Shown piece by piece: positions 12,652 to 45,200 of a DNA stretch of 64,000 nt (position 1 is the stretch's first letter; every line of letters starts with the position of its first letter). The position numbers and the translations under genes were made by a program. The notes under the pieces are model-generated. The model made no database searches and was not told where the DNA came from. It was given only the letters and a program-made list of their open reading frames with translations. The stretch spans positions 1-64,000 of the forward strand of contig QKFD01000061.1 in NCBI GenBank assembly GCA_003251535.1, given 5' to 3'. This DNA comes from Chromatiales bacterium. GTDB taxonomy: Bacteria > Pseudomonadota > Gammaproteobacteria > Thiohalomonadales > Thiohalomonadaceae.

Positions 12652-12667
12652 TGCAGAAGGCGTGCCA
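12652..12667 (-). promoter_or_regulatory. Sigma-54 (-24/-12) promoter of pilA
   Basis: On the minus strand the sequence reads TGGCACGCCTTCTGCA, matching the consensus TGGCAC-N5-TTGCA except for one base in the -12 box. The invariant GG and GC are 10 bases apart. It lies 54 bases upstream of the pilA ATG. Sigma-54 and PilR control of pilA is established in Pseudomonas, and pilR/pilS lie directly upstream here. Confidence 0.85.
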
Positions 12668-32651: not shown

Positions 32652-33530
32652 GTGGCGCGGTTACGGGTGGCGGCCTGCCACTACCCTATCGATCTACTCC
32701 CGGGTTTCGCGGCCTACAGCGCCAAGGTGGAGGCGTTGGTGGCGGAGGCCGCCGCCGCTGGGGCACAGCTCGCCCTCTTTCCGGAGTATGGCGCCATGGA
32801 GCTGACCGGTCTGCTGCCTGCACCGCTGCGGGCGGATCTCCGTGGCCAACTGGCCGCCATGCAGGGCTTTGCCGAGCCGTTTCTCGATCTCTATAGCCGC
32901 CTGGCCCAGCGTTACGGCGTCTACTTGCTGGCGCCCTCGTTCCCCTGGCAGGTGGGGACGGAGTATCGCAACCGCGCCTGGTTCTGCTCCCCTACGGGTA
33001 CCAGCCAGTGGCAGGAGAAGCTGATCATGACCCGTTTTGAGCGGGAGTCGTGGGGGGTGAGCCGAGGGGAGGGGTTGAGGCTGTTTACCACCCCCTTCGG
33101 TCGTATCGGGGTACTCATCTGCTATGACTCCGAGTTTCCCCTCTTGGCCCGCGCCCTAGCGGAGGCCGGGGCGGAGATCTTGCTGGTGCCGAGCTGCACC
33201 GACACCCAGGCCGGTTGGCAACGGGTGCGCACCGCCTGCCGGGCCCGCGCCTTGGAGGGGCAGTGTTATGTCGTGCAGGCACCCACGGTAGGGGAGGCGG
33301 CCTGGTCACCGGCGGTGGATATCAATATCGGTTGGGCGGCTGCCTTCTGTCCGCCCGACTATGGCCTGCCGGAGAGTGGCGTGGTCGCTGAGGGGACGGG
33401 ACAGCCCGGATGGCTGCTAATCGATCTAGACCTGGAGCGCCTGGCGCAGGTGCGACGCGCGGGGCAGGTGCTCAATCTGCGTGACTGGCCGGAGCAGGGG
33501 CAACCGACGGTGGTGGTGGCGGAGTGCTGA
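32652..33530 (+). CDS. Carbon-nitrogen hydrolase (nitrilase superfamily)
   Basis: A 292-residue amidase-type enzyme. The catalytic Glu-Lys-Cys triad is visible: LFPEYGAMEL (Glu near 43), WQEKLIMTRFE (Lys near 119) and LICYDSEFPLLAR (Cys near 157). Such enzymes hydrolyse small amides such as omega-amides or deaminated glutathione; the substrate cannot be assigned. GTG start, one base after the acetyltransferase stop, so translation is probably coupled. Confidence 0.88.
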   Translation: MARLRVAACHYPIDLLPGFAAYSAKVEALVAEAAAAGAQLALFPEYGAMELTGLLPAPLRADLRGQLAAMQGFAEPFLDLYSRLAQRYGVYLLAPSFPWQVGTEYRNRAWFCSPTGTSQWQEKLIMTRFERESWGVSRGEGLRLFTTPFGRIGVLICYDSEFPLLARALAEAGAEILLVPSCTDTQAGWQRVRTACRARALEGQCYVVQAPTVGEAAWSPAVDINIGWAAAFCPPDYGLPESGVVAEGTGQPGWLLIDLDLERLAQVRRAGQVLNLRDWPEQGQPTVVVAEC

Positions 33531-33707
33531 GGGTGCCTTGGCCCATTTGTCCTAGGCCAACGCTGGGTTCAACTGCCTTAAATGGCGGTCGCCTGTAACG
33601 GTGAAATGACGTATTTGTCAGTCTGGGGGCGGAGCAGATTTTTCCGGTAAAAATACAACCCATTGATATTTCAGTTTTATTTTCGTCACTCTAGCCTTCT
33701 AAGAAAC

Positions 33708-33723
33708 TGGCATACGGGTTGCA
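33708..33723 (+). promoter_or_regulatory. Sigma-54 promoter for a small membrane-protein gene
   Basis: TGGCATACGGGTTGCA matches TGGCAC-N5-TTGCA at all but one position, with GG and GC ten bases apart. It lies 44 bases upstream of the GTG of the 37-residue ORF, in an unusually AT-rich stretch. A start near 33735 and the terminator at 33922-33953 would give a transcript of about 215 bases. Confidence 0.75.
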
Positions 33724-33767
33724 ATATACCCAAATATTGATAAATGCCACTGTTGTTGGAGATTGCT

Positions 33768-33881
33768 GTGGACTCCCTGACGATTTACGGCCTTCTGATG
33801 GCCTTCCTCTCCGTGGTCATTCTGCTGAGTGGGCGTGCCCCGGCAGAGGTGCGCAAGCGCCGCCCCGGCAAGAGGCACTGA
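33768..33881 (+). CDS. 37-residue single-span membrane protein
   Basis: Too short for usual gene callers. It starts with GTG, with GGAG (33758-33761) six bases upstream, and reads VDSLTIYGLLMAFLSVVILL, then a polar, strongly basic tail (RKRRPGKRH). This gives one membrane helix (about residues 5-20) with the basic C-terminus probably cytoplasmic. A sigma-54 promoter precedes it and a strong terminator follows, so it looks like a free-standing gene. Small one-helix proteins often tune transporters, oxidases or kinases. I do not recognise a family; CcoQ/CydX-like roles were considered but the sequence does not match them. Confidence 0.7.
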   Translation: MDSLTIYGLLMAFLSVVILLSGRAPAEVRKRRPGKRH

Positions 33882-33921
33882 CTTCCCCCCAGACCTGCGC
33901 ACTCCGGCGCAGTCATGGTTA

Positions 33922-33953
33922 GGCCCGGGTATCTTCTACCCGGGCCTTTTTTT
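33922..33953 (+). terminator. Strong Rho-independent terminator
   Basis: GGCCCGGGTA-TCTTC-TACCCGGGCC followed by seven Ts, a textbook terminator 40 bases after the small ORF. A smaller hairpin (CTGCGC and GCGCAG) lies just before it. Confidence 0.95.
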
Positions 33954-42293: not shown

Positions 42294-45200
42294 CTACAAC
42301 GGTGCAGTGGCCTCCTGTGGTGGGCGACGGGGGGCAAACAGGAGACGGTAGAGGGCCGGTACCACCAGCAGGGTGAGGGCAGTGGAGGCGGTGAGGCCGG
42401 AGATCATGGCCCATGCCATGGGGGGCCAAAGGGGTGAGGGGGTGAGGGCCAGGGGCAGCAGCCCCGCCACTGTGGTGATGCTGGTGAGCAGGATGGGGCG
42501 GAAGCGCTCCACCACCGCCCCTTGTAACGCCTCGACCACCCCGCCGCCCGCCACCCGGGCCTGCTCCACGCGATCGATAAGTACGATGGCGTTGTTCACC
42601 ACCACCCCGGCCAGGGCAAAGACCCCCAACAGGGACATAAAGCCAAATGGCTGTTGGCCCAGCAGCAGCCCCGGCACGATACCGGCCGCCGCCAGCGGGA
42701 TGGTGAGCAGCACCAGTGCCACCCGGCGGAAGGAGTTGAACTGGGCGATGAGGATGGCGATGAGCGCCACCGCCCCCAGCGGCATGGTGCTGACCAGGGC
42801 GGCGTTGGCCTCCCCCGCCCCCTCGGCATCACCGCCATAGGAGAGATGCACCCCCGTGGGTAGTTGCAGGGTCGCAAGGCGGGGTTTGAGCTGGGCAAGC
42901 ACCTCGCTGAAGGCAACCCCCCCTGCCAGCTGGGCCGAGATGGTGACCACCCGCTCGCGGGCCCGGCGGGTGATGAGGGCCGGTTGCCAATCGGGCTCCA
43001 AGGTGGCCACCTGGGCCAGCGGGATGGCGTCGCCGGCGGCGTTGAATAGGGTGATGCCGCGCAGCTGCTCCACCGTCATCTGTTCACCGGCTGCGGGGCG
43101 CACCAGGATGGGGACCGGTTCATCACCGGCGCGATAGTAACCGGCGAGGAGGCCACGGCTGCGGGCGTAGAGGGTATCGGCCACGGCGCCGCGGTCGAGC
43201 CCGAGGGTCGCGGCGGTGGCGTCGTGGGGGATGATGCGCAGGGTGGGTACCCCCACTCCAAGGTTGTGGCGGGCATCACGGGTGCCAGGGGTGGTGGCCA
43301 CCACGGCAAATACCTGTTGCACCGCCTGCGCCAACTCTTCGAGGTCATCACCGTGGAGGCGCACCTCAATCGGCGCCTTGACTGGCGGCCCCTGCTCTAT
43401 GTGGCGGATCACCACCTCCGCCTGCGGCAGGTTGTCGGCCAGGTAGGGGTGGAGCCACGCCTCCAGCTCACCCATGGTGGAGGGGTTGGTGGTGGTCACC
43501 ACCAGGGTGGCGGCGTGGGGGTTGTGGGGCTCTTGGGGCAGGTTGTAGTAGAAGTGGGGGACCGAGCGGCCGAGGTAACTCGCCACCTGCGTGACCTCCG
43601 GGCGCGCCAGTAGTACCGGCTCCAGCTGGGTCACCAGCGGCTCCACCGCCGACAGGTGGCTCCCCTCCGGCAGTTTGAGTTCAACCAGTAGGTCGTTGCG
43701 GTCGGAGACTGGGAAGAATTGTTGATGGACCTGGCCGAGCCCCGCGAGGGAGAGCCCGAGCGCGACGACTGCCAGCAGCAGCACCATCCAGGGGTGCCCT
43801 ACCCCAAGGCGGGCAATGGCGCGGGCCAGGTGGGTGAGACGCCCCTCCGCCACGGGTGCGGGGCGCAGAAAGCGGCGCGCCAGGACCGGCGTGATCCCCA
43901 TGGCAAAGAGGTAGCTCAGGCTAAGGGTGAGCATCACCACCACCGGGATGGCGCTGGTAAAGGCGGCGGTGGGGCCGGTGGAGAGCAGCATCGGCAGAAA
44001 GGTGGCCATGGTGGTGCCGGTGGCGCTGGCGAGGGGGACCGCCAACTCACGGGCGGTGGCAAGGGCCGCGGCGGCGGCCCCCATCCCCTCATTGAGGCGG
44101 CTTTGGATCCCCTCCGCCACCACAATCCCGTTGTCCACCAGGATCCCCAGCGAGATCACCAGGGCCGCGACCGACATCTGGTGTAGCACCCCACCCCCGA
44201 GGGCATAGAGCAGGATGGCGGAGAGCATCACCAGGGGCACCCCGGCCGCCACTAAGAGCCCCAGCCGAGGCCCCATAGTGACCAGGAGCACGAGACCCAC
44301 CACCAACGTCGCGGAGAGTAGGGAGTGTTGCAGGCCATTGATGCGGGCCGCCACCTGGTCGGGCTGGAAATTCAGCTCCTGGACAGTGAGCGGCAGGTAG
44401 TGGGGGGCCCCCTCGGCGATGGCCTGGCGCACCTGGCGGCCAAACTCCACGCTGTTGATACCGTTACGTGGCACGACGCCGAGCCCCACTACCGGCTGGC
44501 CGTGGACCCGCATCCGCTGACTGGGCGGGGTGACTGGGGTGCGGCTGATCTGGGCGATCTGCGAGAGCGGGAGGGTCGTGCCTGTCGGTAGACGGATGGG
44601 GATGGTGGCCAGCTCCGCCAGGCTGGTGAACTCGTTCTGCGGACGCAGGGTGACCTGCTTCTCGCCGATGACGATACTCCCCCCCGGGGCGGCCCGGTTT
44701 TGGCCCGTCAGCTGCGCCGCGACTGCCTGGAGGGTGAGGCCGTAGCGGCGGGCGACGCTCTCCTCCAGGGCGACGGTGACCTGATCGCCCGGATCGCCGA
44801 TTACCGTGACCCGTTTCACCAGAGAGAGCTTCAGCAGGCGCTCGCGTAGATCTTCTGCCACATCCGCCAGGTGGATCAGGTCGTCGCTGCCGCCGATGGC
44901 CAGGAGCACCGCCTCCACGTCCTGGATGTCGCGGTTCAACACCGGCGTCTCCACCCCAGGTGGGAACTCCCGCTGGGCCTCCGCCAGGGCATCCTCCACC
45001 TCATCCCAGGCGCGGTCGGTGTCGGTGATATCACCCCGCAGCTCCAGCTCCATGCTGGTCACCTCTGCCCGTACCTGGACCTCGATCCGTTTCAGCTCCT
45101 CCACCTCGGCCAGGGCATCTTCGATCGGCTCCACCACCAGCCGCTCCAGATCCAGGGCGTCGGCCCCGGGCCAGCTCACCACCACCTGGCCCCACAGTTC

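Follow-up and report, generated by a model that had tools for sequence, protein, structure and literature searches.

A 37-residue membrane protein gene with its own sigma-54 promoter in a Chromatiales bacterium and its putative control by FisR

At positions 33708 to 33953 of a 64,000-nucleotide stretch of DNA from a Chromatiales bacterium (the whole stretch analyzed, referred to as the window), a sigma-54 promoter, a very short open reading frame, and a terminator follow each other on the plus strand, between a nitrilase-type gene that ends at 33530 and a YcgR/PilZ gene. This arrangement raises the question of whether such a unit encodes a protein at all, and, if so, which regulator and which signal switch it on and what the protein could be needed for.

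A tiny gene with its own promoter and terminator

The -24/-12 promoter TGGCATACGGGTTGCA (33708-33723) is an exact consensus match with the exact GG-N10-GC spacing, and it is the sole match to TGGCAYN5TTGCW (TGGCAYNNNNNTTGCW) on both strands of the window, where 0.15 matches were expected from shuffled sequences. Two more matches to TGGCAY-N6-TGCW are found on the minus strand at 12652-12667 and 42706-42721. Transcription from the promoter is predicted to start near 33734. A Shine-Dalgarno sequence, GGAG (33758-33761), precedes by 6 nt the GTG start codon of a 37-codon reading frame (33768-33881), whose product VDSLTIYGLLMAFLSVVILLSGRAPAEVRKRRPGKRH is a single-helix membrane protein with a basic C-terminal tail, as judged by homologues, codon-position bias, and the helix model. 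AlphaFold, run without an alignment, placed the helix at residues 3-22 with a pLDDT of about 90 and modeled the tail with low confidence. An upstream ATG at 33744 was rejected as start codon, as the leader would then be only about 10 nt long and lack a ribosome-binding site, and as the homologues favor the GTG at 33768. The unit ends with an intrinsic terminator (33921-33953) that has an 11-bp stem with 8 GC pairs, followed by seven T. The promoter, the GTG-started frame with its membrane helix and basic tail, and the strong terminator had all been part of the original prediction, and all three were confirmed. Among the 679 start-to-stop frames of 30-45 amino acids in the window, a Shine-Dalgarno sequence together with a hydrophobic segment (19 residues with a mean hydropathy of at least 2.0) was found only here and at one other place.

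When the window protein was used alone, it gave a weak match in genome G001. A profile of these two sequences, applied to 20 genomes of the same family, added homologues in G009 and G012, and a profile with four rows recovered all four sequences at 2.5e-14 or lower, training rows included. The three homologues in G001, G009, and G012 had been found via the protein sequence alone, and each has its own sigma-54 site 60-71 nt 5' of the ATG as well as a downstream terminator. G062 and G155 came in through a pattern that combines promoter and reading frame, and a search with the regulator described below added G103, in which the reading frame follows the sigma-54 site after 218 nt. A sigma-54 site is thus present 5' of all seven core homologues, and the search of relatives for the reading frame together with the promoter, which had been suggested with the prediction, returned homologues that carry both. 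The best Pfam and NCBIfam matches of the window protein and four homologues were far below the curated cut-offs, and this tiny protein family has no model in either collection.

As the transcript (approximately 33734-33953) is short and monocistronic and has a strong terminator, it could in principle be a sigma-54-dependent small RNA in which the reading frame is incidental or secondary, and the sigma-54-driven Qrr sRNAs are a known precedent for such a unit. Yet the frame is intact in all seven core homologues despite their divergence, with a conserved D-x-[LF]-T motif, a Shine-Dalgarno sequence is present, and an Rfam search gave no match for the locus. The differences between the seven frames, counted over 18 aligned codons, number 206, 131, and 273 at codon positions 1, 2, and 3, respectively. 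This concentration at third codon positions speaks against the small RNA, which we regard as very improbable, and such a pattern is what a translated membrane helix should show. Since the frame was kept open and the differences are concentrated at third positions, we conclude that the locus is very probably a real, translated protein gene. Frames broken in relatives that retain promoter and terminator had been named as the finding that would point to an RNA; the opposite was observed, and the view of a genuine tiny membrane protein under sigma-54 control is supported by homologues that keep reading frame, promoter, and terminator together.

The activator and its putative binding sites

In G001, G012, and G103, the tiny gene is divergent from a gene for a sigma-54 activator of PAS-AAA-Fis architecture (449 amino acids in G001 and G012). 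Among the 20 family genomes, 13 have an orthologue of this activator that is at least 54% identical to the one in G001; at the level of the class, orthologues with E-values up to 1e-130 were found in 25 of 369 genomes. The N-terminal domain contains a Cys-x10-Cys-x6-Cys pattern at 35 of 38 orthologue loci. The orthologue of Cupriavidus metallidurans, which is 55% identical, has the cysteines at exactly positions 53, 64, and 71 and adjoins a metallo-beta-lactamase-type gene, in a record that carries no gene annotation at this locus. In FisR of C. pinatubonensis, sulfane sulfur leads to a Cys53-Cys64 tetrasulfide (PMC9495516). FisR of Acinetobacter baumannii activates the pdo-sqr-tauE operon, and cydAB is upregulated by sulfide in that organism (PMC7315123). 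The A. baumannii protein is without the sensing cysteines. In view of its orthology, the register of its cysteines, and its gene context, we call the activator a FisR orthologue and a likely sulfane-sulfur sensor.

The genome that contains the window, G000, has fisR on another contig (C41:4630-5955), with the sensing cysteines present (CYELSHHYTLPCDQAGESCP) and 59% identity to the G001 protein. Downstream of it come a sigma-54 site, cydP, cydA, cydB, cydX, and sqr (cluster at L102:4630-11185), the last of which encodes a sulfide:quinone reductase (SQR) with an E-value of 8e-173 to 3sz0. A physical linkage of fisR to cytochrome bd genes was seen in several genomes (L102, L104, L106, and L108), and elsewhere fisR flanks sigma-54 sites that precede genes for a persulfide dioxygenase (PDO)-type protein, SQR, a YgaP-type membrane protein, or a truncated globin, or cydP-cydA. 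The best solved relatives of the PDO-type protein near fisR are 9rhq and 4ysb, followed by BpPRF and ETHE1. In G353, the truncated globin gene (L186:2955-3451) lies behind a sigma-54 site and adjoins fisR.

The intergenic regions next to fisR contain pairs of TG(T/C)CA-N4-TG(A/G)CA at a spacing of 30-33 nt, a motif that we derived from FisR loci and not from published footprints. With a position matrix built from 28 such sites, none of them from the window or from G000, two sites were detected upstream of the tiny gene, TGCCTTAAATGGCG (33574-33587; score 11.0) and, 33 nt downstream, TGACGTATTTGTCA (33607-33620; score 10.4). Taken singly, these sites are modest, agreeing with the consensus at 8 and 7 of 10 positions and being weaker than most FisR sites. 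As a tandem, they sum to 21.4, the highest value of all 255,948 tandem placements scored across the window (the runner-up has 9.5), and their spacing equals that of the pair before the G000 cyd operon (L081). In 1.49 Mb of sequence, 33 distinct pairs scored at least 18. Most of these are beside fisR, four are beside homologues of the tiny gene (G001, G009, G012, and G103, the first three with scores of 34.8, 33.6, and 41.6), one is the window pair, and a few are elsewhere. Only two pairs with such scores occurred within the loci unrelated to the question (L111-L183), and a chance pair less than 200 nt from a given promoter must therefore be rare.

Another activator, such as NtrC, a PspF-type protein, or a different PAS activator, could nevertheless serve this promoter, and the signal would then not be sulfur. 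At the core homologues of G062 and G155, sigma-54 sites are present and FisR pairs absent, and the G155 homologue adjoins a different PAS-PAS activator, which indicates that the activator can change. However, the tandem in the window ranks first under a model trained elsewhere, and four other homologues have strong pairs, three of them adjoining fisR itself, so that we consider a different activator improbable here. Control of the promoter by FisR and sulfane sulfur is, on this sequence evidence, quite probable, with FisR presumably binding at the site pair and with sulfide or polysulfide as the presumable inducer. Nitrogen, motility, and envelope stress, which had been suggested as signals, found no support, and no evidence of NtrC-type control emerged along the way; the site pair and the fisR context point to sulfane sulfur instead.

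What the protein may do

We propose that the one-gene transcription unit gives rise to a 37-residue inner-membrane protein with one helix, a short periplasmic N-terminus that carries the conserved D-x-[LF]-T, and a basic cytoplasmic tail, an orientation that the positive-inside rule suggests. FisR would bind the two sites, which lie some 100-135 nt upstream at a spacing of 33 nt, and, once activated by reactive sulfane sulfur, would let sigma-54 RNA polymerase transcribe the tiny gene. We assign a probability of roughly 0.7 to this explanation as a whole. The likeliest job of the protein would be that of a small accessory or stabilizing subunit of a respiratory membrane complex under sulfide stress, with the sulfide-tolerant cytochrome bd or SQR as candidate partners. 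This role is tentative, and we would put it at somewhat below even odds; it is suggested by analogy to CydX and CydP and by the presence of the same regulator next to the G000 genes for cytochrome bd and SQR, co-regulation being the one link to these partners.

CydX (TIGR02106) and CydP (NF045611) are likewise tiny membrane proteins with one helix, and both are encoded in the FisR-adjacent cyd operon of G000, whereas the window gene is at a separate locus and has its own promoter. That the window protein is itself CydX or CydP was rejected, since there was no sequence match to the curated models and G000 already has both. The known FisR regulon of Cupriavidus and Acinetobacter (PMC7315123; PMC9495516) resembles the present case in the sigma-54 promoter, the upstream FisR-type pair, and an activator orthologue with the Cys53/64 spacing, but the targets named in these two papers encode enzymes or a transporter (pdo, sqr, tauE, and hsd), in contrast to a stand-alone membrane protein of 37 residues. 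YohP of E. coli (PMC12719787) also belongs to a stress-induced class of single-helix proteins with fewer than 50 amino acids, but has another regulator and another distribution. The tiny gene is missing from most of the related genomes that have FisR and hence is not essential to the pathway.

The main alternative to an accessory role is that the tiny protein exerts feedback on FisR, for example by tethering the activator to the membrane or damping it, and is not a respiratory subunit. The divergent arrangement with fisR, seen at three of the seven core loci, would fit such a function, the basic cytoplasmic tail could touch a soluble regulator, and regulation in the case of PspB/PspC and PspF offers a loose parallel. 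In G000 and G009, however, the gene is unlinked to fisR, the homologues of G155 and G062 occur without FisR sites, and the wider family described below exists without any sigma-54 promoter, and we therefore regard feedback on FisR as unlikely. A membrane protein this small, under a FisR promoter of its own and from a family that lacks a database model, would point to a component of sulfide tolerance of a kind that gene callers can miss, and the promoter, sensor, and inducer are specific enough for a direct reporter test.

A wider DxLT family and a common operator

The window protein conforms to a pattern that we define as DxLT, in which D-x-[LF]-T follows the start codon directly or after a few residues and leads into a single helix that ends in a short tail. 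The D and T are invariant in 21 sequences (alignments A5 and A6). Profiles of first seven and then 21 sequences were run against 369 Gammaproteobacteria from 272 genera and detected relatives in 18 of these genomes, which represent 13 genera. Two or three relatives often share a genome, and G000 itself has a second such protein (C85:163293; MLTFDALTIGGIAVAILFAIVMLATCLTKGCSRTR). A phylum-level sample of 398 genomes yielded no further genome with a DxLT protein. Most members of the wider family are without a sigma-54 site, and many have Cys-rich tails. That these relatives are chance hydrophobic matches was dismissed, because the matches begin at the ATG of the reading frame, the D and T are conserved, and many have Shine-Dalgarno sites. 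Two DxLT genes adjoin another PAS-sigma-54 activator (L253:4574-5998 and L254:4622-5965), and no sigma-54 site was found before either.

Nine of the upstream regions examined contain the operator ATATTAG-N6-CTAATAT with at least 11 of its 14 positions matching, as compared with at most 0.3% of shuffles. In G001, where the tiny gene is FisR-linked, a perfect copy directly precedes the sigma-54 site and thus joins the two branches of the family. The operator was rejected as an SqrR motif, from which it differs, as the latter is ATTC-N8-GAAT (PMC9774250). A variant of the operator was seen before mobA in G064 and G204; the loci with the operator or this variant are L253, L254, L252, L247, L242, L243, L249, L246, L240, and L279, and also L074:4186. 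It is conceivable, although we consider it doubtful, that an unrecognized DxLT family in Gammaproteobacteria serves the sulfane-sulfur response, with one branch under FisR and sigma-54 and another, often with Cys-rich tails, under the ATATTAG operator, and that its proteins are a direct membrane component of reactive-sulfur handling or sensing. The family and its common operator provide a second, independent handle on the role of these proteins.

When 85,000 species genomes were scanned for a sigma-54 site combined with M-x-x-D-x-[LF]-T, 73 matches were obtained, among which G001, G009, and G062 were the only known members recovered, while many others were the starts of clpB. In Poribacteria, Hydrogenedentota, Calditrichota, Omnitrophota, and Planctomycetota, many clpB genes (MRxDKLTIKAQEAL...) are preceded by a -24/-12 site whose distance to the ATG is 47-74 nt; examples are L112, L115, L128, L131, L134, L150, and L161, along with many more loci within L111-L181. 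These sites suggest that clpB, which encodes a heat-shock disaggregase, may be under sigma-54 control in several phyla.
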